From positions 31,738,254-31,802,253 of the forward strand of contig OZ025260.1 in assembly GCA_964019135.1 (NCBI GenBank): DNA of 64,000 nucleotides, given 5' to 3'. Shown here piece after piece: positions 1 through 50,100 of the stretch (its first letter is position 1; every line of letters begins with the position of its first letter). Position numbers and translations under genes: made by a program. The notes below the pieces were generated by a model. That model worked only from the letters and a program-made list of their open reading frames with translations, was not told where the DNA came from and did not search any database. Origin of the DNA: Arenicola marina (lineage: Eukaryota; Annelida; Polychaeta; Arenicolidae).

Positions 1-3000
1 AGCAGACTTACCATGCCTGAGATAGGAATGAGGAGCAGACTTACCATGTCTGAGATAGGAGTGAGGAGCAGACTTACCATGTCTGAGATAGGAGTGAGGA
101 GCAGACTTACCATGTCTGAGATAGGAGTGAGGAGCAGACTTACCATGCCTGAGATAGGAGTGAGGAGCAGACTTACCATGCCTGAGATAGGAGTGAGGAG
201 CAGACTTACCATGTCTGAGATAGGAGTGAGGAGCAGACTTACCATGTCTGAGATAGGAGTGAGGAGCAGACTTACCATGTCTGAGATAGGAGTGAGGAGC
301 AGACTTACCATGTCTGAGATAGGAATGAGGAGCAGACTTACCATGTCTGAGATAGGAATGAGGAGCAGACTTACCATGTCTGAGATAGGAGTGAGGAGCA
401 AACTTACCATGTCTGAGATAGGAATGAGGAGCAGACCTACCATGTCTGAGATAGGAGTGAAGAGCAGACTTACCATGCCTGAGATAGGAGTGAGGAGCAG
501 ACTTACCATGCCTGGGATAGGAATGAGGAGCAGACTTACCATGCCTGAGATAGGAATGAGGAGCAGACTTACCATGTCTGAGATAGGAGTGAGGAGCAGA
601 CTTACCATGCCTGAGATAGGAGTGAGGAGCAGACTTACCATGCCTGAGATAGGAGTGAGGAGCAGACTTACCATGCCTGAGATAGGAGTGAGGAGCAGAC
701 TTACCATGCCTGAGATAGGAGTGAGGAGCAGACTTACCATGTCTGAGATAGGAGTGAGGAGCAGACTTACCATGTCTGAGATAGGAGTGAGGAGCAGACT
801 TACCATGTCTGAGATAGGAATGAGGAGCAGACTTGCCATGTCTGAGATAGGAGTGAGGAGCAGACTTACCATGTCTGAGATAGGAGTGAGGAGCAGACTT
901 ACCATGCCTGAGATAGGAGTGAGGAGCAGACTTACCATGCCTGAGATAGGAGTGAGGAGCAGACTTACCATGTCTGAGATAGGAGTGAGGAGCAGACTTA
1001 CCATGTCTGAGATAGGAGTGAGGAGCAGACTTACCATGTCTGAGATAGGAATGAGGAGCAGACTTACCATGTCTGAGATAGGAATGAGGAGCAGACTTAC
1101 CATGTCTGAGATAGGAGTGAGGAGCAGACTTACCATGTCTGAGATAGGAGTGAGGAGCAGACTTACCATGTCTGAGATAGGAGTGAGGAGCAGACTTACC
1201 ATGCCTGAGATAGGAGTGAGGAGCAGACTTACCATGCCTGAGATAGGAGTGAGGAGCAGACTTATCATGTCTGAGATAGGAGTGAGGAGCAGACTTACCA
1301 TGTCTGAGATAGGAGTGAGGAGCAGACTTACCATGTCTGAGATAGGAGTGAGGAGCAGACTTACCATGTCTGAGATAGGAATGAGGAGCAGACTTACCAT
1401 GTCTGAGATAGGAATGAGGAGCAGACTTACCATGTCTGAGATAGGAGTGAGGAGCAGACTTACCATGTCTGAGATAGGAATGAGGAGCAGACCTACCATG
1501 TCTGAGATAGGAGTGAAGAGCAGACTTACCATGCCTGAGATAGGAGGGAGGAGCAGACTTACCATGCCTGAGATAGGAGTGAGGAGCAGACTTACCATGT
1601 CTGAGATAGGAGTGAGGAGCAGACTTACCATGTCTGAGATAGGAGTGAGGAGCAGACTTACCATGTCTGAGATAAGAGTGAGGAGCAGACTTACCATGTC
1701 TGAGATAGGAGTGAGGAGCAGACTTACCATGCCTGAGATAGGAGTGAGGAGCAGACTTACCATGCCTGAGATAGGAGTGAGGAGCAGACTTACCATGTCT
1801 GAGATAGGAGTGAGGAGCAGACTTACCATGTCTGAGATAGGAGTGAGGAGCAGACTTACCATGTCTGAGATAGGAGTGAGGAGCAGACTTACCATGTCTG
1901 AGATAGGAATGAGGAGCAGACTTACCATGTCTGAGATAGGAATGAGGAGCAGACTTACCATGTCTGAGATAGGAGTGAGGAGCAGACTTACCATGTCTGA
2001 GATAGGAATGAGGAGCAGACCTACCATGTCTGAGATAGGAGTGAAGAGCAGACTTACCATGCCTGAGATAGGAGGGAGGAGCAGACTTACCATGCCTGAG
2101 ATAGGAGTGAGGAGCAGACTTACCATGCCTGGGATAGGAGTGAGGAGCAGACTTACCATGCCTGAGATAGGAGTGAGGAGCAGACTTACCATGTCTGAGA
2201 TAGGAGTGAGGAGTAGACTTACCATGTCTGAGATAGGAGGGAGGAGCAGACTTACCATGCCTGAGATAGGAGTGAGGAGCAGACTTACCATGCCTGAGAT
2301 AGGAGTGAGGAGCAGACTTACCATGTCTGAGATAAGAGTGAGGAGTAGACTTACCATGCCTGAGATAGGAGTGAGGAGTAGGCTTACCATGCCTGAGATA
2401 GGAGTGAGGAGTAGACTTACCATGCCTGAGATAGGAGTGAGGAGCAGACTTACCATGTCTGAGATAGGAGTGAGGAGCAGACATACCATGTCTGAGATAG
2501 GAATGAGGAGCAGACTTACCATGCCTGAGATAGGAATGAGGAGCAGACTTACCATGTCTGAGATAGGAGTGAGGAGCAGACTTACCATGTCTGAGATAGG
2601 AGTGAGGAGCAGACTTACCATGTCTGAGATAGGAGTGAGGAGCAGACTTACCATGCCTGAGATAGGAGTGAGGAGCAGACTTACCATGCCTGAGATAGGA
2701 GTGAGGAGCAGACTTACCATGTCTGAGATAGGAGTGAGGAGCAGACTTACCATGTCTGAGATAGGAGTGAGGAGCAGACTTACCATGTCTGAGATAGGAG
2801 TGAGGAGCAGACTTACCATGTCTGAGATAGGAATGAGGAGCAGACTTACCATGTCTGAGATAGGAATGAGGAGCAGACTTACCATGTCTGAGATAGGAGT
2901 GAGGAGCAGACTTACCATGTCTGAGATAGGAATGAGGAGCAGACTTACCATGTCTGAGATAGGAATGAGGAGCAGACTTACCATGTCTGAGATAGGAGTG

Positions 3001-6000
3001 AGGAGCAGACTTACCATGCCTGAGATAGGAGTGAGGAGCAGACTTACCATGCCTGAGATAGGAGTGAGGAGCAGACTTACCATGTCTGAGATAGGAGTGA
3101 GGAGCAGACTTACCATGTCTGAGATAGGAGTGAGGAGCAGACTTACCATGTCTGAGATAGGAGTGAGGAGCAGACTTACCATGTCTGAGATAGGAATGAG
3201 GAGCAGACTTACCATGTCTGAGATAGGAATGAGGAGCAGACTTACCATGTCTGAGATAGGAATGAGGAGCAGACTTACCATGTCTGAGATAGGAATGAGG
3301 AGCAGACTTACCATGCCTGAGATAGGAGTGAGGAGTAGACTTACCATGCCTGAGATAGGAGTGAGGAGCAGACTTACCATGACTGAGATAGGAGTGAGGA
3401 GCAGACTTACCATGTCTGAGATAGGAGTGAGGAGCAGACTTACCATGTCTGAGATAGGAGTGAGGAGCAGACTTACCATGTCTGAGATAGGAATGAGGAG
3501 CAGACTTGCCATGTCTGAGATAGGAGTGAGGAGCAGACTTACCATGTCTGAGATAGGAGTGAGGAGCAGACTTACCATGCCTGAGATAGGAGGAAGGAGT
3601 AGACTTACCATGTCTGAGATAGGAGGGAGGAGCAGACTTACCATGCCTGAGATAGGAGTGAGGAGCAGACTTACCATGCCTGAGATAGGAGTGAGGAGTA
3701 GACTTACCATGTCTGAGATAGGAGTGAGGAGCAGACTTACCATGCCTGAGATAGGAGTGAGGAGCAGACTTACCATGTCTGAGATAGGAGTGAGGAGCAG
3801 ACTTACCATGCCTGAGATAGGAGTGAGGAGCAGACTTACCATGCCTGAGATAGGAGTGAGGAGCAGACTTACCATGTCTGAGATAGGAGTGAGGAGTAGA
3901 CTTACCATGCCTGAGATAGGAGTGAGGAGCAGACTTACCATGCCTGAGATAGGAGTGAGGAGCAGACTTACCATGCCTGAGATAGGAGTGAGGAGCAGAC
4001 TTACCATGTCTGAGATAGGAGTGAGGAGTAGACTTACCATGTCTGAGATAGGAGTGAGGAGTAGACTTACCATGCCTGAGATAGGAGTGACGAGCAGACT
4101 TACCATGTCTGAGATAGGAGTGAGGAGTAGACTTACCATGCCTGAGATAGGAGTGAGGAGCAGACTTACCATGCCTGAGATAGGAGTGAGGAGCAGACTT
4201 ACCATGCCTGAGATAGGAGTGAGGAGCAGACTTACCATGTCTGAGATAGGAGTGAGGAGTAGACTTACCATGCCTGAGATAGGAGTGAGGAGCAGACTTA
4301 CCATGCCTGGGATAGGAGTGAGGAGCAGACTTACCCAGCCTGGGATAGGAGTGAGGAGCAGACTTACCATGTCTGAGACAGGAGTGAGGAGCAGACTTAC
4401 CATGTCTGAGATAGGAGTGAGGAGCAGACTTACCATGCCTGAGATAGGAGTGAGGAGCAGACTTACCATGTCTGAGATAGGAGTGAGGAGCAGACTTACC
4501 ATGCCTGAGATAGGAGTGAGGAGCAGACTTACCATGCCTGAGATAGGAGGGAGGAGTAGACTTACCATGTCTGAGATAGGAGTGAGGAGCAGACTTACAA
4601 TGCCTGAGATAGGAGTGAGGAGCAGACTTACCATGCCTGAGATAGGAGTGAGGAGTAGACTTACCATGCCTGAGATAGGAGTGAGGAGCAGACTTACCAT
4701 GCCTGAGATAGGAGTGAGGAGCAGACTTACCATGTCTGAGATAGGAGTGAGGAGCAGACTTACCATGTCTGAGATAGGAGTGAGGAGCAGACTTACCATG
4801 TCTGAGATAGGAATGAGGAGCAGACTTGCCATGTCTGAGATAGGAGTGAGGAGCAGACTTACCATGTCTGAGATAGGAGTGAGGAGCAGACTTACCATGC
4901 CTGAGATAGGAGGAAGGAGTAGACTTACCATGTCTGAGATAGGAGGGAGGAGCAGACTTACCATGCCTGAGATAGGAGTGAGGAGCAGACTTACCATGCC
5001 TGAGATAGGAGTGAGGAGTAGACTTACCATGTCTGAGATAGGAGTGAGGAGCAGACTTACCATGCCTGAGATAGGAGTGAGGAGCAGACTTACCATGTCT
5101 GAGATAGGAGTGAGGAGCAGACTTACCATGCCTGAGATAGGAGTGAGGAGCAGACTTACCATGCCTGAGATAGGAGTGAGGAGCAGACTTACCATGTCTG
5201 AGATAGGAGTGAGGAGTAGACTTACCATGCCTGAGATAGGAGTGAGGAGCAGACTTACCATGCCTGAGATAGGAGTGAGGAGCAGACTTACCATGCCTGA
5301 GATAGGAGTGAGGAGCAGACTTACCATGTCTGAGATAGGAGTGAGGAGTAGACTTACCATGTCTGAGATAGGAGTGAGGAGTAGACTTACCATGCCTGAG
5401 ATAGGAGTGAGGAGCAGACTTACCATGTCTGAGATAGGAGTGAGGAGTAGACTTACCATGCCTGAGATAGGAGTGAGGAGCAGACTTACCATGCCTGAGA
5501 TAGGAGTGAGGAGCAGACTTACCATGCCTGAGATAGGAGTGAGGAGCAGACTTACCATGTCTGAGATAGGAGTGAGGAGTAGACTTACCATGCCTGAGAT
5601 AGGAGTGAGGAGCAGACTTACCATGCCTGGGATAGGAGTGAGGAGCAGACTTACCATGCCTGGGATAGGAGTGAGGAGCAGACTTATAATGCCTGAGATA
5701 GGAGGAAGGAGCAGACTTACCATGTCTGAGATAGGAGTGAGGAGCAGACTTACCATGCCTGGGATAGGAGTGAGGAGCAGACTTACCATGCCTGAGATAG
5801 GAGTGAGGAGCAGACTTACCATGTCTGAGATAGGAGGGAGGAGTAGACTTACCATGTCTGAGATAGGAGGGAGGAGCAGACTTACCATGCCTGAGATAGG
5901 AGTGAGGAGCAGACTTACCATGCCTGAGATAGGAGTGAGGAGCAGACTTACCATGTCTGAGATAGGAGTGAGGAGCAGACTTACCATGTCTGAGATAGGA

Positions 6001-8970
6001 GTGAGGAGCAGACTTACCATGCCTGAGATAGGAATGAGGAGCAGACTTACCATGTCTGAGATAGGAGGGAGGAGCAGACTTACCATGTCTGAGATAGGAG
6101 GGAGGAGTAGACTTACCATGCCTGGGATAGGAGTGAGGAGCAGACTTACCATGCCTGGGATAGGAGTGAGGAGCAGACTTACCATGCCTGAGATAGGAGT
6201 GAGGAGCAGACTTACCATGCCTGAGATAGGAATGAGGAGCAGACTTACCATGTCTGAGATAGGAGTGAGGAGCAGACTTACCATGTCTGAGATAGGAGTG
6301 AGGAGCAGACTTACCATGCCTGAGATAGGAGTGAGGAGCAGACTTACCATGTCTGAGATAGGAGTGAGGAGCAGACTTACCATGTCTGAGATAGGAGTGA
6401 GGAGCAGACTTACAATGCCTGAGATAGGAGTGAGGAGCAGACTTACCATGCCTGAGAGAGGAATGAGGAGCAGACTTATCATGCCTGAGATAGGAGTGAG
6501 GAGCAGACTTACCATGTCTGAGATAGGAGTGAGGAGCAGACTTACCATGTCTGAGATAGGAATGAGGAGCAGACTTACCATGTCTGAGATAGGAGTGAGG
6601 AGCAGACTTACCATGTCTGAGATAGGAGTGAGGAGCAGACTTACCATGTCTGAGATAGGAATGAGGAGCAGACTTACCATGCCTGGGATAGGAGTGAGGA
6701 GCAGACTTACCATGCCTGAGATAGGAGTGAGGAGCAGACTTACCATGCCTGAGAGAGGAATGAGGAGCAGACTTACCATGCCTGAGATAGGAGTGAGGAG
6801 CAGACTTACCATGTCTGAGATAGGAGTGAGGAGCAGACTTACCATGTCTGAGATAGGAATGAGGAGCAGACTTACCATGTCTGAGATAGGAGTGAGGAGC
6901 AGACTTACCATGTCTGAGATAGGAGTGAGGAGCAGACTTACCATGTCTGAGATAGGAATGAGGAGCAGACTTACCATGTCTGAGATAGGAATGAGGAGCA
7001 GACTTACCATGTCTGAGATAGGAGTGAGGAGCAGACTTACCATGTCTGAGATAGGAGTGAGGAGCAGACTTACCATGTCTGAGATAGGAATGAGGAGCAG
7101 ACTTACCATGCCTGGGATAGGAGTGAGGAGCAGACTTACCATGCCTGGGATAGGAATGAGGAGCAGACTTACCATGCCTGAGATAGGAATGAGGAGCAGA
7201 CTTACCATGTCTGAGATAGGAGTGAGGAGCAGACTTACCATGCCTGAGATAGGAGTGAGGAGCAGACTTACCATGCCTGAGATAGGAGTGAGGAGCAGAC
7301 TTACCATGCCTGAGATAGGAGTGAGGAGCAGACTTACCATGCCTGAGATAGGAGGGAGGAGTAGACTTACCATGCCTGGGATAGGAGTGAGAAGCAGACT
7401 TACCATGCCTGGGATAGGAGTGAGGAGCAGACTTACCATGCCTGAGATAGGAGTGAGGAGCAGACTTACCATGCCTGAGATAGGAATGAGGAGCAGACTT
7501 ACCATGTCTGAGATAGGAGTGAGGAGCAGACTTACCATGTCTGAGATAGGAGTGAGGAGCAGACTTACCATGCCTGAGATAGGAGTGAGGAGCAGACTTA
7601 CCATGTCTGAGATAGGAGTGAGGAGCAGACTTACCATGTCTGAGATAGGAGTGAGGAGCAGACTTACAATGCCTGAGATAGGAGTGAGGAGCAGACTTAC
7701 CATGCCTGAGAGAGGAATGAGGAGCAGACTTATCATGCCTGAGATAGGAGTGAGGAGCAGACTTACCATGTCTGAGATAGGAGTGAGGAGCAGACTTACC
7801 ATGTCTGAGATAGGAATGAGGAGCAGACTTACCATGTCTGAGATAGGAGTGAGGAGCAGACTTACCATGTCTGAGATAGGAGTGAGGAGCAGACTTACCA
7901 TGTCTGAGATAGGAATGAGGAGCAGACTTACCATGCCTGGGATAGGAGTGAGGAGCAGACTTACCATGCCTGAGATAGGAGTGAGGAGCAGACTTACCAT
8001 GCCTGAGAGAGGAATGAGGAGCAGACTTACCATGCCTGAGATAGGAGTGAGGAGCAGACTTACCATGTCTGAGATAGGAGTGAGGAGCAGACTTACCATG
8101 TCTGAGATAGGAATGAGGAGCAGACTTACCATGTCTGAGATAGGAGTGAGGAGCAGACTTACCATGTCTGAGATAGGAGTGAGGAGCAGACTTACCATGT
8201 CTGAGATAGGAATGAGGAGCAGACTTACCATGTCTGAGATAGGAATGAGGAGCAGACTTACCATGTCTGAGATAGGAGTGTGGAGCAGACTTACCATGTC
8301 TGAGATAGGAGTGAGGAGCAGACTTACCATGTCTGAGATAGGAATGAGGAGCAGACTTACCATGCCTGGGATAGGAGTGAGGAGCAGACTTACCATGCCT
8401 GAGATAGGAATGAGGAGCAGACTTACCATGCCTGAGATAGGAGTGAGGAGCAGACTTACCATGTCTGAGATAGGAGTGAGGAGCAGACTTACCATGTCTG
8501 AGATAGGAGTGAGGAGCAGACTTACCGTGTCTGAGATAGGAGTGAGAAGCAGACTTACCATGTCTGAGATAGGAGGGAGGAGTAGACTTACCATGCCTGA
8601 GATAGGAGGGAGGAGCAGACTTACCATGCCTGAGATAGGAGTGAGGAGTAGACTTACCATGTCTGAGATAGGAGTGAGGAGCAGACTTACAATGCCTGAG
8701 ATAGGAGTGAGGAGCAGACTTACAATGCCTGAGATAGGAGTGAGGAGCAGACTTACAATGCCTGAGATAGGAGTGAGGAGCAGACTTACCGTGTCTGAGA
8801 TAGGAGTGAGAAGCAGACTGACCATGTCTGAGATAGGAGGGAGGAGTAGACTTACCATGCCTGAGATAGGAGGGAGGAGCAGAGTTACCATGCCTGAGAT
8901 AGGAGTGAGGAGCAGACTTACCATGCCTGAGAGAGGAGTGAGGAGCAGACTTACTATGTCTGAGATAGGA
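1..8970 (-). repeat. 33-bp minisatellite, about 270 copies, in SLC30A9 intron 5
   Basis: Perfectly in-register 33-bp units run from the left edge of the window to about 8,970. Unit variants differ at a few sites (tctgag/cctgag, gagtgagg/gaatgagg/gagggagg, cagactta/tagactta). Because 33 is a multiple of 3 and the unit has no stop, the plus strand is open for 2,999 codons; this is a by-product. Read on the minus strand, the coding strand of SLC30A9, every unit holds CTATCTCAG, five bases (GCATG or ACATG) and then GTAAGT, a perfect 5' splice consensus. Blocks are duplicated inside the array: a 40-unit shift (1,320 bp) links about 3,480-4,330 to about 4,800-5,650, and a 38-unit shift (1,254 bp) links about 6,450 to about 7,705. 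The array continues off the left edge, so its full size is unknown. Confidence 0.97.
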
Positions 8971-9246
8971 GTTAGTGTGTGGGTGGGGGGGGGGCAGACT
9001 TACCATGCCTGAGATAGGAGTTAATGTGGGTGGGGGGGCACACTTACCGTGCCTGAGATAGGAGTTAGTGTGTGGGTGGAGGGGGGGCACACTTACCGTG
9101 CCTGAGATAGGAGTTAATGTGTGGGTGGGTGGGGGGGGGGCACACTTACCGTGCCTGAGATAGGAGTTAGTGTGTGGGTGGGGGGGGGGGGGCAGACTTA
9201 CCATGCCTGAGATAGGAGTCAATGTGTGGGTGGGGGGCACACTTAC
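8971..9246 (-). repeat. Transitional 44-53-bp copies of the exon 5 splice donor
   Basis: Between exon 5 of SLC30A9 and the regular 33-bp array lie longer units carrying G-runs. Their CTTAC motifs (GTAAG on the minus strand) lie at 9242, 9197, 9145, 9092, 9043, 8999 and 8950, that is 44-53 bp apart. The copies nearest the exon repeat the true exon-intron junction (CAGGCACG then GTAAGTGTG) almost exactly. Going away from the exon, this becomes CAGGCATG then GTAAGTCTG, the version used throughout the array. The gradient makes the exon 5 donor the likely seed of the array. Confidence 0.9.
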
Positions 9247-9350
9247 CGTGCCTGGTATCGGCGTAGGCTTAAAGATATAAGGCTTTTCGGTGGCCCCCTC
9301 TTCGTGCTGCTGCAGATAGGCGGACTTCGCCTTCTTCCTAACGAAGAGGT
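9247..9350 (-). CDS. SLC30A9: SLC30A9 coding exon 5
   Basis: 104 nt between acceptor TTGTTGGGCAG and donor GGCACG then GTAAGTGTG. It encodes LFVRKKAKSAYLQQHEEG followed by KPYIFKPTPIPGT and ends in phase 0. This is the last exon in the window; its donor is followed at once by the tandem copies described above. Confidence 0.83.
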
Positions 9351-12300: not shown

Positions 12301-14068
12301 CTATAGCAACAAATATAGCGTATATGATATACCAGGACTTGCCCGTGGGTAAATAGGTAATAACTGTAGAGGTTTCTCACATGTTCTCCACATCTCGGCG
12401 CAGATAGACGACGATGACCTCCTTCTCGGGGTATGGACTTCTCTTGCGGGTACGCACCAGCGGGTCGAGATCACTGAGGAAAAGATGTCAAACAATGCAA
12501 ACTGTACGACTGAGCAATCACAGAACAATCACGTTACCCATACATACATATACGGTTATACATGTAGTTTGATCTGGCTCAGGAGACTGAACAGCTTGGG
12601 TTTTGAAATTGCGATTTTGGCAAATAATTTCGATGAAAGAACATCATGTGAAAATCATAACATCCCTAACTGGAGTCGAACCCAGGACCGCCGATTTGGC
12701 GCGCAGGTACCTCTTACCAATTAAACATGTATGATCATCTCAGCTTATTATCCCAATTATTAAATAATATATGTATTGTGTTGCTCCTTGACAAGGACAG
12801 ATTCCGGTATATTTATCAATCAAGCGACAATTGGCCAGATGTTAGCATATGGACTTTTTGACTGCATTATTAATTGTCTTTCTACCCATTGAGACAATTT
12901 AAAAATAACAAAAATTAAGTACAAAATGACACAACGCCAAACAAAGCCATATGTTGTGTAAATGCATGTAATAATGCACAGGCCAGTCACAATACAATAT
13001 GCAGTACATGTACATATGTACCTATTAAATGCACAGGCCAGAAGGAAAATCACGCCTACGAGGAATCCAAAACGTATTCAGTCATCGCCCGAACAATACA
13101 ATATGTGATACCTATTTAATGCACATGCCAGAAGTCAAACTGAACTTACGAGGAATCCAGAACGTATTCAGTCATCGCCCGAAGAGGCGTTATGAAGATA
13201 TTGGCCGTGTACGACTGGCTGAAATCGATCTTTGGTCGAGACTTTAACTTGGCTTCTTCCGGAGAGCTGGCTTCGGGGGCGGGTGGGGATGCCTTGATGT
13301 CTGCACTCTGGACAGGATCCTGACCGGCAGAGGGCGCTAGCAGTCGGCATGTGCCACTCAGCCTGGCAAAGGGCACCACCAGTAGCACAGACTTCCTCTT
13401 TCTTGCCTGAGACAGCAGCCTGAAACGTCGCTCCCAACACCCTGGAAGTACCCAAAGCAAAACCTGTGGCTAGAAAATTGCCTGTCTGGTAAACAAACTC
13501 TGTCTTACTGCACATCCCAGAGGTTCCCATGTTTCATATAATAACGTTGGTGAACAAGTATGAAGATTAGTTAATATACCAGTACATATCAAAACCTTTT
13601 CTTCTTCTTCTTCTTCAGCCTTCTTGCATTCTCTGAATGCTTTTAAAACTGTATTTGCTGTACTATAATTTAACTAAACTTGCACAAACACATGGTTGAG
13701 AATGAAATAAAATAGCACAAAATCGTTTGCTTAATTGGTTTGAAAATGACACTATAACTTATAAAGATCATCTTAATTAATCTTATAAATATTATTTTAA
13801 TTAATCTTATAAATATCATCCTATGATCTTACAGGTTATACCAGCCAGCCTTGATACAATGGGTTATATCAACCAGTCCTGTCACTGGGTTATACCGGCC
13901 AGCCCTATCACTGGGTTATACCAGCCAGCTCTGATACTGGGTTATACCTGAGCATGGTTGTGATGTCACCAGACGTCTAGGTGCAGCGGTGCAAGAGGCT
14001 GAGGACTGGAGGCTACGGCCAGATAATTGCAGCCGAATTGCTTGTCTTGGTATACCCCAGGTAGCCAT
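9247..14068 (-). CDS. SLC30A9: SLC30A9 (ZnT9), mitochondrial zinc transporter; first five coding exons, 3' part outside the window
   Basis: Five minus-strand exons join in frame: 14068-13948, 13441-13150, 12473-12381, 11993-11911 and 9350-9247 (693 nt, 231 codons), with intron phases 1, 2, 2, 1 and 0. Exon 1 encodes an Arg-rich, acid-free start (MATWGIPRQAIRLQ), as expected of a mitochondrial targeting peptide. Exons 2-4 carry the conserved SLC30A9 N-terminal domain: NIFITPLRAMTEYVLDSS, then SDLDPLV, KRSPYPEKE and VVYLRRDVEN, then KWGSLEKV. These match, with the same spacing, the human stretch that runs from FITGVRAINEF through SSDLEQLR and RRSPHED to EVWGS. Exon 5 ends in FKPTPIPGT, where the family has a Gly/Pro turn just before the first membrane helix. 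The cation-diffusion helices themselves must lie beyond the left edge, after an intron of more than 9 kb. SLC30A9 exports zinc from mitochondria; that role comes from family knowledge. The identification is strong; the exact 5' end is less so. Confidence 0.88.
9351..10586. other. SLC30A9 intron 4, 3' half: no gene seen
   Basis: Unique AT-rich sequence with a (TA)n microsatellite at about 9,622-9,650. An open frame of 102 codons on the plus strand at 9,840-10,148 has no recognisable motif and typical intron composition, so it is not called. Confidence 0.6.
10587..11800. mobile_element. Non-autonomous hAT-type DNA transposon (1.2 kb)
   Basis: The left end reads CAGACATGGGGTAATC and the right end, reversed, reads CAGGCATGGGGTGATT, a terminal inverted repeat starting with CAG. 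The flanks ctgagtag (10579-10586) and ctgaatag (11801-11808) are an 8-bp target duplication with one change. Eight bases and CAG ends are typical of hAT elements. Both ends are packed with subterminal palindromes built on GTAATCGTAATCGATTAC, within about 190 bp of the left end and 150 bp of the right. No transposase remnant was seen in the middle. It sits in intron 4 of SLC30A9, 110 bp from exon 4. Confidence 0.85.
11911..11993 (-). CDS. SLC30A9: SLC30A9 coding exon 4
   Basis: 83 nt. It reads AINKWGSLEKVQKERKRIAK and then KEWRDNA, a charged helix that aligns without gaps with the segment after DVE in vertebrate SLC30A9. The acceptor TATTTTAAG (ending 11994) is used rather than the CACAG 17 bases upstream, because the latter would bring an in-frame TAA. 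The donor is AATGCCT then GTGAGTAC. Confidence 0.85.
11994..12380. other. SLC30A9 intron 3: nothing recognised
   Basis: Unique intronic sequence between exons 3 and 4. Short open frames here are extensions of exon 3 into the intron. Confidence 0.6.
12381..12473 (-). CDS. SLC30A9: SLC30A9 coding exon 3
   Basis: 93 nt bounded by acceptor TTTTCCTCAG and donor AACAT then GTGAGAAA. It reads SDLDPLVRTRKRSPYPEK and then VIVVYLRRDVEN, colinear with the SSDLEQLRKIRRRSP and VYLRSDVE blocks of vertebrate SLC30A9. Phase 2 in and phase 2 out. Confidence 0.88.
12560..12740 (-). mobile_element. tRNA-derived SINE-like fragment in SLC30A9 intron 2
   Basis: On the minus strand an A-box-like TTTAATTGGTAAGAGG (around 12,712-12,727) is followed by a B box GGTTCGACTCC (12,672-12,682), the spacing of a tRNA. 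The stem pairing is poor and the sequence continues into unrelated DNA, so this is a SINE head rather than a working tRNA gene. The far end is not defined. Confidence 0.5.
12990..13183 (-). repeat. Tandem duplication of the exon 2 splice donor (90-104-bp unit, 2 copies)
   Basis: Plus-strand 13,149-13,183 (end of exon 2 with its donor) and 13,059-13,093 in the intron are nearly identical over 35 bases, 90 bp apart. The similarity continues into the intron (atgcacaggccagaag and atgcacatgccagaag). In the intronic copy the donor GTAAGTTC has become GTAGGCGT. A partial third copy is visible around 12,973-12,990. It is an early tandem duplication across an exon-intron boundary. Confidence 0.9.
13150..13441 (-). 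CDS. SLC30A9: SLC30A9 coding exon 2
   Basis: 292 nt. The acceptor TACTTCCAG ends at 13442 and the donor GATTCCTC then GTAAGTTC at 13149. The first half (low-conservation Arg/Lys then Pro/Ala/Ser-rich linker) leads into the conserved NIFITPLRAMTEYVLDSS motif of SLC30A9. The acceptor was chosen because it completes the phase-1 codon from exon 1 and avoids the in-frame stop (TAG near 13470) carried by a slightly earlier start. The donor end is duplicated downstream. Confidence 0.82.
13834..13948 (-). repeat. 26-bp tandem repeat beginning at the exon 1 splice donor (5 copies)
   Basis: The motif gggttatacc occurs at 13939 (the true donor, GGTATAACCC on the coding strand), 13913, 13887 and 13861 (changed to gggttatatc), plus one shorter copy at 13834. 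The spacing is exactly 26 bp for the first four. Three of the four downstream copies keep the GT. Confidence 0.9.
13948..14068 (-). CDS. SLC30A9: SLC30A9 coding exon 1: mitochondrial targeting sequence
   Basis: Forty codons plus one base. The ATG complement is at 14066-14068. The peptide has six Arg, no Asp or Glu, and many Ser/Ala/Leu, as in a mitochondrial presequence. The donor is CTCAG then GTATAAC. A TTTTACAG acceptor ends at 14081, 13 bases before the ATG, so a separate non-coding first exon is likely further right. The intron starts with four tandem copies of its own donor. Confidence 0.78.
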
Positions 14069-17716: not shown

Positions 17717-20700
17717 CCGGCCGTGACTCACTGGGCAGGAGAACCCAGGGTACCCGGCCGTGACTCACTGGGCAGGAGAACCCAGGGTACCCGGCCGTGA
17801 CTCACTGGACAGGACCCAGGGTACCCGGCCGTGACTCACTGGACAGGACCCAGAGTACCCGGCCATGACTCACTGGGCAGGAGAACCCAGGGTACCCGGC
17901 CGTGACTCACTAGACAGGAGGACCCAGGGTACCCGGCCGTGACTCACTAGACAGGAGGCCCCAGGGTACCCGGCCGTGACTCACTGGACAGGAGAACCCA
18001 GAGTACCCGGCCATGACTCACTGGACAGGAGAACCCAGGGTACCCGGCCGTGACTCACTAGACAGGAGAACCCAGGGTACCCGGCCGTGACTCACTGGAC
18101 AGGAGAACCCAGGGTAACCGGCCATGACTCACTGGACAGGAGAACCCAGGGTACCCGGCCGAGACTCACTGGACAGGAGAACCCAGGGTACCCGGCCGTG
18201 ACTCACTAGACAGGAGGACCCAGGGTACCCGGCCGTGACTCACTAGACAGGAGGACCCAGGGTACCCGGCCGTGACTTACTGGGCAGGAGAACCCAGGGT
18301 ACCCGGCCGTGACTCACTGGACAAGAGAACCCAGGGTACCCGGCCGTGACTCACTGGACAGGAGAACCCCGGGTACGCGGCCGTGACTCACTGGGCAGGA
18401 GAACCCAGGGTACCCGGCCGTGACTCACTGGACAGGACCCAGGGTACCCGGCCGTGACTCACTGGACAGGACCCAGAGTACCCGGCCATGACTCACTGGG
18501 CAGGAGAACCCAGGGTACCCGGCCGTGACTCACTAGACAGGAGGACCCAGGGTACCCGGCCGTGACTCACTAGACAGGAGGACCCAGGGTACCCAGCCGT
18601 GATTGTTTGGACAGGAGAACCCAGGGTACCCGGCCGTGACTCACTGGACAGGAGAACCCAGGGTAACCGGCCATGACTCACTGGACAGGAGAACCCAGGG
18701 TACCCGGCCGAGACTCACTGGACAGGAGAACCCAGGGTACCCGGCCGTGACTCACTAGACAGGAGAACCCAGGGTACCCGGCCGTGACTCACTAGACAGG
18801 AGGACCCAGGGTACCCGGCCGTGACTTACTGGGCAGGAGAACCCAGGGTACCCGGCCGTGACTCACTGGACAGGAGAACCCAGGGTACCCGGCCGTGACT
18901 CACTGGACAGGAGAACCCCGGGTACGCGGCCGTGACTCACTGGGCAGGAGAACCCAGGGTACCCGGCCGTGACTCACTGGACAGGACCCAGGGTACCCGG
19001 CCGTGACTCACTGGACAGGACCCAGAGTACCCGGCCATGACTCACTGGGCAGGAGAACCCAGGGTACCCGGCCGTGACTCACTAGACAGGAGGACCCAGG
19101 GTACCCGGCCGTGACTCACTAGACAGGAGGCCCCAGGGTACCCGGCCGTGACTCACTGGACAGGAGAACCCAGGGTACCCGGCCATGACTCACTGGACAG
19201 GAGAACCCAGGGTACCCGGCCGTGACTCACTAGACAGGAGAACCCAGGGTACCCGGCCGTGACTCACTGGACAGGAGAACCCAGGGTAACCGGCCATGAC
19301 TCACTGGACAGGAGAACCCAGGGTACCCGGCCGAGACTCACTGGACAGGAGGACCCAGGGTACCCGGCCGTGACTCACTAGACAGGAGGACCCAGGGTAT
19401 CCAGCCGTGATTGTTTGGACAGGAGAACCCAGGGTACCCGGCCGTGACTCACTGGACAGGAGAACCCAGGGTAACCGGCCATGACTCACTGGACAGGAGA
19501 ACCCAGGGTACCCGGCCGTGACTCACTAGACAGGAGGACCCAGGGTACCCGGCCGTGACTCACTAGACAGGAGGACCCAGGGTACCCGGCCGTGACTTAC
19601 TGGGCAGGAGAACCCAGGGTACCCGGCCGTGACTCACTGGACAGGACCCAGAGTACCCGGCCATGACTCACTGGGCAGGAGAACCCAGGGTACCCGGCCG
19701 TGACTCACTAGACAGGAGGACCCAGGGTACCCGGCCGTGACTCACTAGACAGGAGGAACCAGGGTACCCAGCCGTGATTGTTTGGACAGGAGAACCCAGG
19801 GTACCCGGCCGTGACTCACTAGACAGGAGGACCCATGGTACCCGGCCGTGACTCACTAGACAGGAGGACCCAGGGTACCCGGCCGTGACTTACTGGACAG
19901 GAGAACCCAGGGTACCCGGCCATGACTCACTGGACAGGAGAACCCAGGGTACCCGGCCGTGACTCCCTAGACAGGAGAACCAAGGGTAACCGGCCATGAC
20001 TCACTGGACAGGAGAACCCAGGGTACCCGGCCGTGACTCACTGGACAGGAGAACCCAGGGTACCCGGCCGAGACTCACTGGACAGGAGAACCCAGGGTAC
20101 CCGGCCGTGACTCACTGGACAGGAGAACCCAGGGTACCCGGCCGTGACTCACTAGACAGGAGGACCCAGGGTACCCGGCCGTGACTCACTGGACAGGAGA
20201 ACCCAGGGTAACCGGCCATGACTCACTGGACAGGAGAACCCAGGGTACCCGGCCGAGACTCACTGGACAGGAGAACCCAGGGTACCCGGCCGTGACTCAC
20301 TGGACAGGAGAACCCAGGGTACCCGGCCGTGACTCACTAGACAGGAGAACCCAGGGTACCCGGCCGTGACTCACTGGACAGGAGAACCCAGGGTAACCGG
20401 CCATGACTCACTGGACAGGAGAACCCAGGGTACCCGGCCGAGACTCACTGGACAGGAGAACCCAGGGTACCCGGCCGTGACTCACTGGACAGGAGAACCC
20501 AGGGTACCCGGCCGTGACTCACTAGACAGGAGGACCCAGGGTACCCGGCCGTGACTCACTGGGCAGGAGAACCCAGGGTACCCGGCCGTGACTCACTGGA
20601 CAGGAGAACCCAGGGTACCCGGCCGTGACTCACTGGACAGGAGAACCCAGGGTACCCGGCCGTGACTCACTGGACAGGAGAACCCAGGGTACCCGGCCGT

Positions 20701-23700
20701 GACTCACTAGACAGGAGGACCCAGGGTACCCGGCCGTGACTCACTGGACAGGAGAACCCAGGGTACCCGGCCGTGACTCACTGGACAGGAGGACCCAGGG
20801 TACCCAGCCGTGATTGTTTGGACAGGAGAACCCAGGGTACCCGGCCGTGACTCACTAGACAGGAGGACCCTAGGTACCCGGCCGTGACTCACTAGACAGG
20901 AGGAGCCAGGGTACCCAGCCGTGATTGTTTGGACAGGAGAACCCAGGGTACCCGGCCGTGACTCACTAGACAGGAGGACCCAGGGTACCCGGCCGTGACT
21001 CAATGGACAGGAGAACCCAGGGTACCCGGCCGTGACTGCTTGGACAGGAGAACCCAGGGTACCCGGCCGTGACTGTTTGGACAGGAGAACCCAGGGTACC
21101 CGGCCGTGACTCACCGGGCAGGAGAACCCAGGGTACCCGGCCATGACTCACTGGGCAGGACCCAGGGTAACCGGCCGTGACTCCCTAGACAGGAGAACCC
21201 AGGGTACCCGGCCATGACTCACTGGACAGGAGGACCCAGGGTACCCGGCCATGACTCACTGGACAGAAGAACCCAGGGTACCCGGCCATGACTCACTGGA
21301 CAGGAGAACCCAGGGTACCCGGCCGTGACTCACTGGACAGGAGGACCCAGGGTACCCGGCCGTGACTCACTGGACAGGAGAACCCAGGGTAACCGGCCGT
21401 GACTCCCTAGACAGGAGAACCCAGGGTACCCGGCCGTGACTCACTGGACAGGAGAACCCAGGGTACCCGGCCATGACTCACTGGGCAGGACCCAGGATAC
21501 CCAGCCGTGACTCACTGGACAGAAGAACCCAGGGTACCCGGCCGTGACTGCTTGGACAGGAGAACCCAGGGTACCCGGCCGAGACTCATTGGTCAGGAGA
21601 ACCCAGGGTACCCGGCCGTGACTCATGGGTCAGGAGAACCCAGGGTACCCGGCCGTGACTGTTTTGACAGGAGAACCCAGGGTACCCGGCCGTGACTCAC
21701 TGGACAGGAGAACCCAGGGTACCCGGCCGTCACTCCCTAGACAGGAGAACCCAGGGTACCCGGCCGTGACTGTTTGGACAGGAGAACCCAGGGTACCCGG
21801 CCGTGACTCACTAGACAGGAGAACCTAGGGTACCCGGCCGTGACTCACTGGGCAGGAGAACCCAGGGTAACCGGCCGTGACTCCCTAGACAGGAGAACCC
21901 AGGGTACCCGGCCATGACTCACTGGACAGGAGAACCCAGGGTACCCGGCCGTGACTCACTGGACAGGACCCAGGGTACCCGGCCGTGACTCACTGGACAG
22001 GAGAACCCAGGGTACCCGGCCGTGACTCACTGGACAGGAGAACCCAGGGTACCCGGCCGTGACTCACTGGACAGAAGAACCCAGGGTACCCGGCCGTGAC
22101 TTACTGGACAGGAGGACTCAGGGTACCCGGCCGTGACTCACTGGACAGGAGAACCCAGGGTACCCGGCCATGACTCACTGGGCAGGACCCAGGATACCCA
22201 GCCGTGACTCACTGGACAGGAGAACCCAGGGTACCCGGCCGTCACTCACTGGACAGAAGAACCCAGGGTACCCGGCCGTGACTCACTGGGCAGGAGAACC
22301 CAGGGTACCCGGCCGTGACTCACTGGACAGAAGAACCCAGGGTACCCGGCCGTGACTCACTGGGCAGGAGAACCCAGGGTACCCGGCCGTGACTCACTGG
22401 ACAGAAGAACCCAGGGTACCCGGCCGTGACTCACTGGGCAGGAGAACCCAGGGTACCCGGCCGTGACTCACTGGACAGAAGAACCCAGGGTACCCGGCCG
22501 TGACTCACTGGGCAGGAGAACCCAGGGTAACCGGCCGTGACTCACTAGACAGGAGAACCCAGGGTACCCGGCCGTGACTTACTGGACACTAGAACCCAGG
22601 GTACCCGGCCGTGACTCACTGGACAGAAGAACCCAGGGTACCCGGCCGTGACTCACTGGGCAGGAGAACCCAGGGTACCCGGCCGTGACTCACTGGACAG
22701 GAGAACCCAGGGTACCCGGCCGTGACTTACTGGACAGGAGAACCCAGGGTACCCGGCCATGACTCACTGGGCAGGACCCAGGGTACCCGGCCGTGACTCA
22801 CTGGGCAGGAGAACCCAGGGTACCCGGCCGTGACTTACTGGACAGGAGAACCCAGGGTACCCGGCCATGACTCACTGGGCAGGACCCAGGATACCCAGCC
22901 GTGACTCACTGGACAGGAGAACCCAGGGTACCCGGCCGTGACTTACTGGACAGGAGAACCCAGGGTACCCGGCCATGACTCACTGGGCAGGACCCAGGAC
23001 ACCCAGCCGTGACTCACTGGACAGAAGAACCCAGGGTACCCGGCCGTGACTCACTGGACAGGAGAACCCAGGGTACCCGGCCATGACTCACTGGGCAGGA
23101 CCCAGGATACCCAGCCGTGACTCACTGGACAGGAGAACCCAGGGTACCCGGCCGTGACTTACTGGACAGGAGAACCCAGGGTACCCGGCCATGACTCACT
23201 GGGCAGGACCCAGGACACCCAGCCGTGACTCACTGGACAGAAGAACCCAGGGTACCCGGCCGTGACTCCCTAGACAGGAGAACCCAGGGTACCCGGCCGT
23301 GACTCACTGGACAGGAGAACCCAGGGTACCCGGCCATGACTCACTGGACAGGAGAACCCAGAGTACCCGGCCGTGACTTACTGGACAGGAGAACACAGGG
23401 TACCCGGCCGTGACTCACTGGACAGGACCCAGGGTACGCGGCCGTGACTCACTGGACAGGAGAACCCAGGGTACCCGGCCGTGACTCACTGGACAGGACC
23501 CAGGGTACCCGGCCATGACTCACTGGACAGGAGAACCCAGGGTACCCGGCCGTGACTTTCTGGACAGGAGAACCCAGGGTACCCGGCCGTGACTCACTGA
23601 ACAGGAGAACCCAGGGTACCCGGCCATGACTCACTGGACAGGAGAACCCAGGGTACCCGGCCGTGACTCACTGGACAGGACCCAGGGTACCCGGCCGTGA

Positions 23701-25357
23701 CTCACTGGACAGGAGAACCCAGGGTACCCGGCCGTGACTCACTGGACAGGACCCAGGTTACCCGGCCATGACTCACTGGGCAGGACCCAGGATACCCAGC
23801 CGTGACTCACTGGACAGAAGAACCCAGGGTAACCGGCCATGACTTACTGGACAGGAGAACCCAGGGTACCCGGCCATGACTTACTGGACAGGAGAACCCA
23901 GGGTACCCGGCCGTGACTTACTGGACAGGAGAACCCAGGGTACCCGGCCATGACTTACTGGGCAGGAGAACCCAGGGTACCCGGCCGTGACTCACTAGAC
24001 AGGAGAACCCAGGGTACCCGGCCATGACTTACTGGACAGGAGAACCCAGGGTACCCGGCCATGACTCACTGGGCAGGACCCAGGATACCCAGCCGTGACT
24101 CACTGGACAGGAGAACCCAGGGTACCCGGCCGTGACTTACTGGACAGGAGAACCCAGGGTACCCGGCCATGACGCACTTGGCAGGACCCAGGATACCCAG
24201 CCGTGACTCACTAGACAGGAGAACCCAGGGTACCCGGCCATGACTTACTGGACAGGAGAACCCAGGGTACCCGGCCATGACGCACTTGGCAGGACCCAGG
24301 ATACCCAGCCGTGACTCACTGGACAGGAGAACCCAGGGTACCCGGCCGTGACTCACTGGACAGGAGAACCCAGGGTACCCGGCCGTGACTTACTGGACAG
24401 GAGAACCCAGGGTACCCGGCCATGACGCACTTGGCAGGACCCAGGATACCCAGCCGTGACTCACTAGACAGGAGAACCCAGGGTACCCGGCCATGACTTA
24501 CTGGACAGGAGAACCCAGGGTACCCGGCCATGACGCACTTGGCAGGACCCAGGATACCCAGCCGTGACTCACTGGACAGGAGAACCCAGGGTACCCGGCC
24601 GTGACTCACTGGACAGGAGAACCCAGGGTACCCGGCCGTGACTTACTGGACAGGAGAACCCAGGGTACCCGGCCATGACTCACTGGGCAGGACCCAGGAT
24701 ACCCAGCCGTGACTCACTGGACAGAAGAACCCAGGGTACCCGGCCGTGACTCACTGGACAGGAGAACCCAGGGTACCCGGCCGTGACTTACTGGACAGGA
24801 GAACCCAGGGTACCCGGCCATGACTCACTGGGCAGGACCCAGGATACCCAGCCGTGACTCACTGGACAGGAGAACCCAGAGTACCCGGCCGTGACTCACT
24901 GGACAGGAGAACCCAGGGTACCCGGCCATGACTCACTGGGCAGGAGAACCCAGGGTACCCGGCCGTGACTCACTAGACAGGAGAAACCCAGGGTACCCGG
25001 CCGTGACTCACTGGACAGAAAAACCCAGGGTACCCGGCCGTGACTCACTGGACAGGAGAACCCAGGGTACCCGGCCGTGACTCACTGGGCAGGAGAACCC
25101 AGGGTACCCGGCCGTGACTCACTGGGCAGGAGAACCCAGGGTACCCGGCCGTGACTCACTAGACAGGAGAAACCCAGGGTACCCGGCCGTGACTCACTGG
25201 ACAGAAGAACCCAGGGTACCCGGCCGTGACTCACTGGACAGGAGAACCCAGGTACCCGGCCATGACTCACTGGGCAGGACCCAGGGTACCCAGCCGTGAC
25301 TCACCAGACAGAAGAACCCAGGGTACCCGGCCGTGACTTACTGGACAGGAGAACCCA
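17717..25357. repeat. 37-bp minisatellite, about 206 copies
   Basis: The unit is roughly ggccgtgactcactgg, acaggagaaccc, agggtaccc. Common variants shorten it (caggaccc for caggagaaccc) or replace actcactgg by actgtttgg or acttactgg. Five units make 185 bp, which explains the regularly spaced 62-codon ORFs. Most units hold TGACTCA (an AP-1 consensus) and GGTACC. Higher-order structure is clear: near-identical multi-unit blocks recur around 18,370 and 18,910. A variant with gacgcacttgg appears at 24171, 24279, 24424 and 24532, a duplicated 253-bp block. Not coding. Confidence 0.97.
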
Positions 25358-47006: not shown

Positions 47007-47127
47007 GTCAGTGAGAAATGAAAGACACATCATTTGTGCCATTGATAATTCGAGAAATTGTGCTTAGAATAGAGGATATTATTACCACGATGTTGTTCTT
47101 AACTGCAGAGCACGAGAGTCTCCTTAC

Positions 47128-50100
47128 AATGCACGTTATCATGTTATTGTACTTACAATGCACGTTATCATGTTATTGTACTTACAATGTACGTTATCAT
47201 CATGTTATTGTACTTACAATGCACGTTATCATCATGTTATTGTACTTACAATGCAAGTTATCATCATGTTATTGTACTTACAATGCACGTTATCATGTTA
47301 TTGTACTTACAATGCACGTTATCATGTTATTGTACTTACAATGTACGTTATCATCATGTTATTGTACTTACAATGCACGTTATCATGTTATTGTACTTAC
47401 AATGCACGTTATCATCATGTTATTGTACTTACAATGCACGTTATCATCATGTTATTGTACTTACAATGCACGTTATCATGTTATTGTACTTACAATGCAC
47501 GTTATCATCATGTTATTGTACTTACAATGCACGTTATCATCATGTTATTGTACTTACAATGCACGTTATCATCATGTTATTGTACTTACAATGCACGTTA
47601 TCATGTTATTGTACTTACAATGCACGTTATCATGTTATTGTACTTACAATGTACGCTATCATCATGTTATTGTACTTACAATGCACGTTATCATGTTATT
47701 GTACTTACAATGTACGTTATCATCATGTTATTGTACTTACAATGCACGTTATCATGTTATTGTACTGACAATGCACGTTATCATCATGTTATTGTACTTA
47801 CAATGCACGTTATCATTATGTTATTGTACTTACAATGCACGTTATCATCATGTTATTGTACTTACAATGCACGTTGTCATGTTATTGTACTTACAATGCA
47901 CGTTATCATCATGTTATTGTACTTACAATGTACGTTATCATCATGTTATTGTACTTACAATGCACGTTATCATTATGTTATTGTACTTACAATGCACGTT
48001 ATCATCATGTTATTGTACTTACAATGCACGTTATCATTATGTTATTGTACTTACAATGCACGTTATCATTATGTTATTGTACTTACAATGCACGTTATCA
48101 TCATGTTATTGTACTTACAATGCACGTTATCACCATGTTATTGTACTTACAATGCACGTTATCATTATGTTATTGTACTTACAATGCACGTTATCATTAT
48201 GTTATTGTACATACAATGTACGTTATCATCATGTTATTGTTCTTACAATGCACGTTATCATCATGTTATTGTACTTACAATGCACGTTATCATGTTATTG
48301 TACTTACAATGCACGTTATCATGTTATTGTACTTACAATGCACGTTATCATTATGTTATTGTACTTACAATGCACGTTATCATCATGTTATTGTACTTAC
48401 AATGCACGTTGTCATGTTATTGTACTTACAATGCACGTTATCATGTTATTGTACTTACAATGCACGTTATCATTATGTTATTGTACTTACAATGCACGTT
48501 ATCATGTTATTGTACTTACAATGCACGTTATCATCATGTTATTGTACTTACAATGCACGTTATCATCATGTTATTGTACTTACAATGCACGTTGTCATGT
48601 TATTGTACTTACAATGCACGTTATCATCATGTTATCATACTTACAATGCACGTTATCATGTTATTGTACTTACAATGCACGTTATCATTATGTTATTGTA
48701 CTTACAATGCACGTTATCATCATGTTATTGTACTTACAATGCACGTTGTCATGTTATTGTACTTACAATGCACGTTATCATGTTATTGTACTTACAATGC
48801 ACGTTATCATTATGTTATTGTACTTACAATGCACGTTATCATGTTATTGTACTTACAATGCACGTTATCATCATGTTATTGTACTTACAATGCACGTTAT
48901 CATCATGTTATTGTACTTACAATGCACGTTGTCATGTTATTGTACTTACAATGCACGTTATCATCATGTTATCATACTTACAATGCACGTTATCATCATG
49001 TTATTGTACTTACAATGCACGTTATCATTATGTTATTGTACTTACAATGCACGTTATCATCATGTTATTGTACTTACAATGCACGTTATCATAATGTTAT
49101 TATACTTACAATGCACGTTATCATCATGTTATTGTACTTACAATGCACGTTATCATTATGTTATTGTACTTACAATGTACGTTATCATCATGTTATTGTT
49201 CTTACAATGCACGTTGTCATCATGTTATTGTACTTACAATGCACGTTATCATCATGTTATTGTACTTACAATGCACGTTATCATGTTATTGTACTTACAA
49301 TGCACGTTATCATGTTATTGTACTTACAATGCACGTTATCATTATGTTATTGTACTTACAATGCACGTTATCATGTTATTGTACTTACAATGCACGTTAT
49401 CATCATGTTATTGTACTTACAATGCACGTTGTCATGTTATTGTACTTACAATGCACGTTATCATCATGTTATTGTACTTACAATGCACGTTGTCATGGTA
49501 TTGTACTTACAATGCACGTTATCATCATGTTATTGTACTTACAATGCACGTTGTCATGTTATTGTACTTACAATGCACGTTATCATCATGTTATTGTACT
49601 TACAATGCACGTCATCATCATGTTATTGTACTTACAATGCACGTTATCATCATCTTATTGTACTTACAATGCACGTTATCATCATGTTATTGTACTTACA
49701 ATGCACGTTATCATCATGTTATTGTACTTACAATGCACGTTATCATGTTATTGTACTTACAATGCACGTTATCATGTTATTGTACTTACAATGTACGCTA
49801 TCATCATGTTATTGTACTTACAATGCACGTTATCATGTTATTGTACTTACAATGTACGTTATCATCATGTTATTGTACTTACAATGCACGTTATCATGTT
49901 ATTGTACTGACAATGCACGTTATCATCATGTTATTGTACTTACAATGCACGTTATCATTATGTTATTGTACTTACAATGCACGTTATCATCATGTTATTG
50001 TACTTACAATGCACGTTGTCATGTTATTGTACTTACAATGCAGGTTATCATCATGTTATTGTACTTACAATGTACGTTATCATCATGTTATTGTACTTAC

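Follow-up and report, generated by a model that had tools for sequence, protein, structure and literature searches.

An intron of the SLC30A9 gene of the annelid Arenicola marina is filled almost entirely by a minisatellite whose units repeat the junction between the preceding exon and the intron, with 391 copies of that junction, the real one included. We consider it probable, at roughly 0.82, that this array is a 'mirage', which would have arisen as a tandem duplication spanning the junction and been enlarged by slippage or unequal exchange while splicing was kept at the first donor. Mirages are exon-edge tandem repeats of amphioxus, described in excerpts of two papers at Adh3, the globin genes BflGb6 and BflGb9, TnC, and PGBD5 (PMC3087553, PMC3902484); an earlier reading of this DNA from its letters alone (the sequence-only reading) had noted that intronic minisatellites near splice sites are reported from amphioxus, in agreement with these excerpts. 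The window is the whole 64-kb stretch that was analysed; coordinates are relative to it, negative values lie in its upstream flank, and the 264 kb comprising window and flanks were taken from an 867-Mb assembly. The parts of SLC30A9 that bear on the array are as follows, a slash marking the junction.

9247..9350, minus strand: SLC30A9 exon (exon 5 of the sequence-only reading), ending ...ATACCAGGCACG and encoding DLFVRKKAKSAYLQQHEEGATEKPYIFKPTPIPGT (sequence, collinearity, phase-0 join)
9238..9246, minus strand: real 5′ splice site GTAAGTGTG, the first junction of the array (sequence and junction count)
8945..9254, minus strand: six exon-proximal units of 44–53 bp, CAGGCAYG/GTAAGTSTG plus a C-rich spacer (Tandem Repeats Finder, TRF; junction spacing)
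1..8972, minus strand: array of 33-bp units, CAGRCATG/GTAAGTCTGCTCCTCACTCCTATCT, continuing to -3690 with 383.7 copies in all, the distal copies degraded (TRF)

TRF reported 271.9 copies of period 33 inside the window and units of ~49–53 bp in the exon-proximal part. With the flanks included, the 33-bp array overshot the window and ran from -3690 to 8972, a length of 12.66 kb that makes up nearly all of an intron of ~13.8 kb. The size given by the sequence-only reading, more than 9 kb and about 270 copies, is accurate inside the window and too small for the array as a whole, which holds 384 copies in 12.66 kb. We counted as a junction every match to a 17-bp junction core with at most four substitutions, which gave the 391 copies; a slightly different core gave 390. 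The 390 steps between successive junctions measured 45, 52, 53, 49, 44, and 49 bp for the first six, exactly 33 bp for 383, and 41 bp for the last, reproducing the graded series of units that had been described from the letters. Compared with the 33-bp consensus, units in the middle of the array are ~97% identical, the six exon-proximal units 61–76%, and the last four 55–88%, with 54 distinct units among 379. Two degraded copies at the far edge read GTAAGTGTG, like the real donor, and the middle of the array reads GTAAGTCTG. Diverged edges together with GTAAGTGTG at the far edge are the expected look of an old junction duplication after a shorter unit homogenised its centre. The seed would have been a tandem duplication across the 3′ end of the SLC30A9 exon and the start of the intron; slippage or unequal exchange would then have raised it to 391 junction copies, and a shortened 33-bp unit would have spread through the middle, so that older 44–53-bp copies survived beside the exon and degraded ones at the opposite end. 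Assembling long arrays is difficult, and an artefact that multiplied a short repeat might be suspected, but we regard this as very improbable given the 54 distinct units, the single-base variants, and the degraded edge copies, the presence of only 200 N in 264 kb, and the recurrence of the pattern at unrelated loci whose units differ. Mirages are characterised by length instability in germline and soma, the somatic kind being reported for amphioxus Adh; a search with 383 bp adjoining the array matched one place only in this single assembly, leaving no second haplotype for comparison.

The identity of the gene and the position of the exon end were both as the sequence-only reading had them. The stitched translation of four exons matched human SLC30A9 (PDB 2enk, E = 1.5e-14), the match spanning the three exons upstream but no more than a few initial residues of the array-bearing exon, and a downstream exon encodes Cation_efflux (Pfam). 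Two upstream segments lie in the window.

12386..12475, minus strand: SLC30A9 exon segment SDLDPLVRTRKRSPYPEKEVIVVYLRRDVE (collinearity, 2enk match)
13149..13280, minus strand: SLC30A9 exon segment (SQSYTANIFITPLRAMTEYVLDSS) (collinearity, 2enk match)

From 13280 down to -10314, the exons are collinear with those of human SLC30A9. The array-bearing exon ends at 9247 (CAGGCACG), the intron begins with GTAAGTGTG at 9246, and the exon joins in phase 0 to the exon at -4579..-4637, giving PGT followed by ASESIFQSGSGKVVVYAVT, with the next exon continuing INAANC; at the corresponding join, human SLC30A9 presumably reads TAS..GKVVMVAICINGLNC. Collinearity and the phase-0 join argue for assigning the array-bearing exon to SLC30A9, and that join, made from the first donor, would yield a sensible protein.

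Units next to the exon resemble its end. Of three proximal units compared, one repeats the final 8 bases of the exon exactly and two match them at 7 of 8 positions, and the exon end ACGCCGATACCAGGCACG matches the best proximal unit ACTCCTATCTCAGGCACG at 14 of 18 positions. As in mirages, the unit spans the exon–intron boundary and includes exon sequence. Over exon positions -18 to -3, 12 of 16 bases match, a level reached by none of 20,000 shuffles and by none of 195 flanking GTRAGT sites, and nine other SLC30A9 exons, their ends taken at approximate boundaries, match at no more than 8 of 18 positions. The proposed homology of the exon-proximal units to the exon end is borne out by these comparisons, although it is modest beyond the 8-bp core.

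Most array copies retain a donor, as mirage units carry splice signals. GT is kept in 381 of the 391 junction copies, and 354 of 390 array donors equalled or exceeded the real donor (10.39) when donors were scored with a 5′ splice-site frequency table; the alternative junction core gave 354/389. There is no sign of weakened decoys in this array, and the claim that sense-strand donors occur throughout the array stands.

Junction repeats recur at other genes nearby. With thresholds of score ≥200 and period ≥12, TRF returned 29 rows in 264 kb, which amount to 28 arrays, as the SLC30A9 array accounts for two rows; six of these arrays lie at exon edges, the SLC30A9 33-bp array among them. At CLPB, identified by joining the exon ...GQEGAITTVSS to the next exon (8zr0, E = 1e-30), 95 copies of a 60-bp unit match 45 of 49 exon bases, and the next CLPB exon lies just past the array; among the 64 array donors found, unlike in SLC30A9, only 24 equal or exceed the real donor in score, and 51/64 keep GT. 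A Sushi exon at 76.8 kb is followed by 6.3 copies of a 64-bp unit matching 51 of 53 exon bases. A second Sushi exon, at 72.3 kb, has a donor, GTGAGTT, that recurs many times behind it; this junction was scored apart from the main exon-match table and with other settings. At 80033–81474 the 3′ splice site is repeated instead, in 13.6 copies of a 106-bp unit containing the acceptor and the start of an exon at 81.4 kb that by eye reads as Sushi. Repeats in this 264 kb occur at both 5′ and 3′ boundaries, as in the amphioxus mirages described in the excerpts. An earlier SLC30A9 exon, ending at 13150, carries a two-copy duplication across its donor, possibly a new-born junction repeat. Three further repeats within the window enter the argument.

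13019..13183, minus strand: 1.8-copy, 90-bp donor-spanning duplication of the earlier SLC30A9 exon (TRF)
17717..25357, minus strand: array 2, units of 37/34 bp, ~209 units, sense CCA/GTRAGTCAC, a seventh candidate for an exon-edge array (TRF)
47123..64000, strand not assigned: array 3, units of 32/29 bp, 795 units, continuing to 71996 outside the window (TRF)

In array 2, 13 of 16 pre-junction bases of the first unit (TTCTCCTGTCCA/GTAAGT) match the next copy, and the array perhaps grew from the donor of a putative first SLC30A9 exon. This array (7.6 kb) adjoins a CpG-rich stretch, a possible promoter and first exon.

We then considered the whole assembly. Three genome scans gave nine distinct donor-bearing arrays among the matches listed, and we opened all nine; this sample was picked by donors, and it therefore shows how often an array with donors lies at a real one but does not give the corresponding fraction for arrays in general. 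Eight of the nine begin at the donor of a coding exon, one of the eight indirectly, behind an array that starts there. At AASS (8e8t, 3.4e-18), 87.6 copies of a 41-bp unit match 36 of 39 exon bases. The corresponding matches are 21/22 at an M20 peptidase (Pfam), 18/19 at ALDH1L1 (7yjj, 1e-24), 34/35 at a PLC-beta gene (9y7h, 3e-13), and 25/26 at a PhyH gene (Pfam). Exon content of the units is thus clearer at CLPB, AASS, PLC-beta, and the 76.8-kb Sushi exon than at SLC30A9. Two exons identified by open frame and splice signals only, with no Pfam match, are an exon encoding a transmembrane segment (19/20 bases) and a tetraspan-like exon (12/12), the latter followed by a 27-bp array and then by the listed 42-bp array. 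The remaining junction belongs to an antistasin/lustrin-like protein, whose neighbouring exon matches Antistasin and whose array-bearing exon falls below the Lustrin_cystein cut-off. The 27-bp and 42-bp donor-bearing arrays, at C1:1087700-1093699 on contig C1, stand back to back after one exon, and in the 42-bp array the donor G is missing from most copies, which read GATAAGT.

These junctions bear on whether the likeness of the array to a donor could be a coincidence in an ordinary intronic minisatellite. TRF arrays of score ≥50 occupy 26% of the 264 kb, and chance alone would put GTRAGT in some of them; many arrays are likewise formed by the reversed control word of the genome scans. However, neither the shuffles nor the flanking GTRAGT sites matched the SLC30A9 exon end as well as its own array does, exon stretches of 19–53 nt are repeated at other genes, and donor-bearing arrays in eight of nine cases begin at a coding-exon donor or behind an array that does. 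Coincidence, already contradicted by the exon sequence inside the units, is scarcely credible.

An abundance of strong donors raises the question of which are used. In all 11 junctions, the unverified array 2 left out, the first donor is equalled or exceeded in score by the next copy with an intact GT; at the M20 gene, a copy between the two has lost GT. Some transcripts might accordingly use array donors and add an in-frame insert of 15 aa or longer to SLC30A9; a precedent is human IFI6 (6-16), where a minisatellite provides multiple donors according to an excerpt of PMC4526556. For the ten junctions of known phase, use of the second donor would add a stop-free in-frame stretch in five (SLC30A9, CLPB, ALDH1L1, tetraspan, and PhyH), a stop in four (the 76.8-kb Sushi gene, AASS, M20, and the transmembrane protein), and a frameshift in one (PLC). 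Five of ten in frame is not clearly above the expected third, and the next five SLC30A9 unit lengths break the frame. The excerpt of PMC3902484 likewise reports the lancelet Adh and TnC mirages without aberrant mRNA and the PGBD5 repeats without interference in splicing. We consider use of alternative donors unlikely: decoy use would break five of the ten proteins, making strict first-donor use likely. Selection for in-frame units was considered and rejected, 5/10 in frame making no case for it.

If the first donor is used, as the mirage interpretation proposes, every array copy is intronic and the mRNA is unchanged; the junction duplication and its expansion would be silent for as long as the first donor stayed in use, and the array would be close to neutral. 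Exon definition probably achieves this by pairing the 3′ splice site of the exon with the nearest downstream donor, which is the first donor. Competition between two sites in constructs often favours the intron-proximal one, and these arrays are thus a real test of donor choice.

The donors might instead have a function of their own, binding U1 small nuclear ribonucleoprotein and so preventing premature cleavage and polyadenylation within the long intron, or serving recursive splicing. Donor positions +1 to +6 are 98.4–99.7% identical over 379 units, and each 33-bp unit has a pyrimidine-rich stretch and a CAG 5 nt before the donor. But most other positions of the unit are about equally conserved, and with 54 distinct units homogenisation alone suffices to explain the donor identity; the 28-nt stretch from GT to AG is, moreover, below the usual length of an intron. 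We judge either function quite improbable.

Genome-wide word counts bear on how general the phenomenon is. Three GTAAGT at gaps of 20–50 nt occur 76,774 times, compared to 49,847 for the reversed word, whereas single GTAAGT outside arrays is rarer than its reverse in this region (205 vs 313 per Mb); three AGGTRAGT in tandem occur 14,928 times, compared to 6,131 reversed. These counts are of copies, and long arrays weigh heavily in them. Among the matches listed, four AGGTRAGT arrays lie within 1.75 Mb of the start of C1, and eight reversed-word arrays fall in the first 17.6 Mb, three of which also hold the donor-like GTGAGT or GTAAGA; the only reversed-word array opened was C1:1754361, common to both lists. 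The counts suggest, without proving, that junctions seed arrays more than intron interiors do. Taken literally, a density of 2.3 per Mb would amount to ~2,000 arrays genome-wide, with a Poisson range of ~500 to 5,000; the figure is crude, being extrapolated from just four arrays, all of them on a single contig. On a wider reading, which we hold tentatively and doubt more than we favour, exon–intron junctions would be genome-wide hot spots of minisatellite birth (~2,000 loci) through a process tied to the junction, such as splicing-coupled or R-loop-linked breakage and repair, and the spliceosome would ignore up to hundreds of similar donors.

Several results weigh against reading the SLC30A9 array as a mirage and against generalising that reading. 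Beyond the 8-bp core, at positions -18 to -9, only 6 of 10 exon bases match, a level that 287 of 20,000 shuffles reached. The array at the 72.3-kb Sushi exon shares 6 of 10 exon bases, and the antistasin-like array shares only three of three. At CLPB, 40 of the 64 array donors score below the real donor. First-donor use is predicted from reading frame and conservation. The other 21 of the 28 arrays, or 22 if array 2 is counted with them, had no exon-edge tie that could be seen in a region short of full annotation, indicating that arrays as such are common here. Array 3, at 25 kb the largest array in 264 kb, takes up nearly all of an intron flanked by Sushi-type exons in a plus-strand gene; because its GTAAGT lies on the strand opposite to that gene, we rejected it as a junction repeat. 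For the strongest donor word, three CAGGTAAGTA at gaps of 28–34 nt, the excess was small (200 vs 136), and no exon was seen at the ninth opened array, C1:223851, of four or so units.

The original account of the amphioxus Adh mirage is said to be that of Canestro et al. in 2002, and the units of the human IFI6 minisatellite are reportedly short. The likeness to amphioxus extends to AG/GT signals in many units there and GT in most copies here, whereas the host here is an annelid, the genes are different, and many loci are affected in one genome. The 391 SLC30A9 junction copies extend over ~12.9 kb, compared to 6 and 3 units in two BflGb6 haplotypes, and the amphioxus mirages are reported without disturbance of splicing, where first-donor use in the annelid is predicted (excerpts of PMC3087553 and PMC3902484). 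IFI6, too, has a minisatellite at a donor with units able to act as donors (Turri et al., 1995, as excerpted in PMC4526556); unlike the annelid arrays, for which use is a prediction, it is a single human locus at which downstream units are used. Human internal tandem repeats likewise have ~30-bp units, some at exon–intron boundaries, but average ~4 copies, occur in recent primate paralogs, and have been proposed to create introns (excerpt of PMC2812944), whereas the copies here are intronic and stand behind a conserved exon. In annelids, the minisatellites in intron 1 of earthworm metallothionein are also large and intronic, with monomers of 25–216 bp that the excerpt of PMC12783039 does not describe as exon-edge copies or as donor-bearing, and the excerpt of an Amynthas genome paper merely counts minisatellites (PMC12130307). 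The literature searched, which covered few subscription papers, contained no annelid report of junction-derived arrays. The type is already known; the phylum, the size, and the abundance are new.

Choice among identical donors has mostly been studied with few copies in constructs. The junctions described here, which lie in conserved genes, form a natural series with two to several hundred similar donors behind the real one; most decoys of SLC30A9 score as high as the real site, and if the hot-spot reading is true, such genes are natural multi-donor competition experiments. The cases found in the literature searched being chiefly from amphioxus, recurrence in a protostome suggests either independent origin or a general process that has been overlooked. 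The arrays also bear on models in which new introns arise from junction duplications, and genomes rich in them would be harder to assemble and to annotate.

The mitochondrial contig (15.9 kb) marks the host as an annelid. Its protein genes, which were identified by inspecting their translations, share one strand and follow the order COX1-COX2-ATP8-COX3-ND6-CYTB-ATP6-ND5-ND4L-ND4-(rRNA space)-ND1-ND3-ND2, 23 of 25 ARAGORN tRNA hits are on the same strand, the tRNAs occupy positions matching those of annelids such as Lumbricus, and genetic code 5 fits conserved COX1 residues by eye. The annelid gene order rules out an amphioxus host, which bears on the range of the phenomenon and not on its mechanism.

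Three smaller repeats complete the region. A donor is followed after ~55 bp by an 18-bp array (-7671..-7195), which was rejected as a junction repeat, being by eye unlike that donor. A degenerate GT-rich array at 44828–46252 ends just before the likely acceptor of a Sushi-type exon (TGTCCTGTGGCAG) and may be another 3′ junction case. Short-period TACAGTATAG and TACAA repeats occupy 36418–36958.

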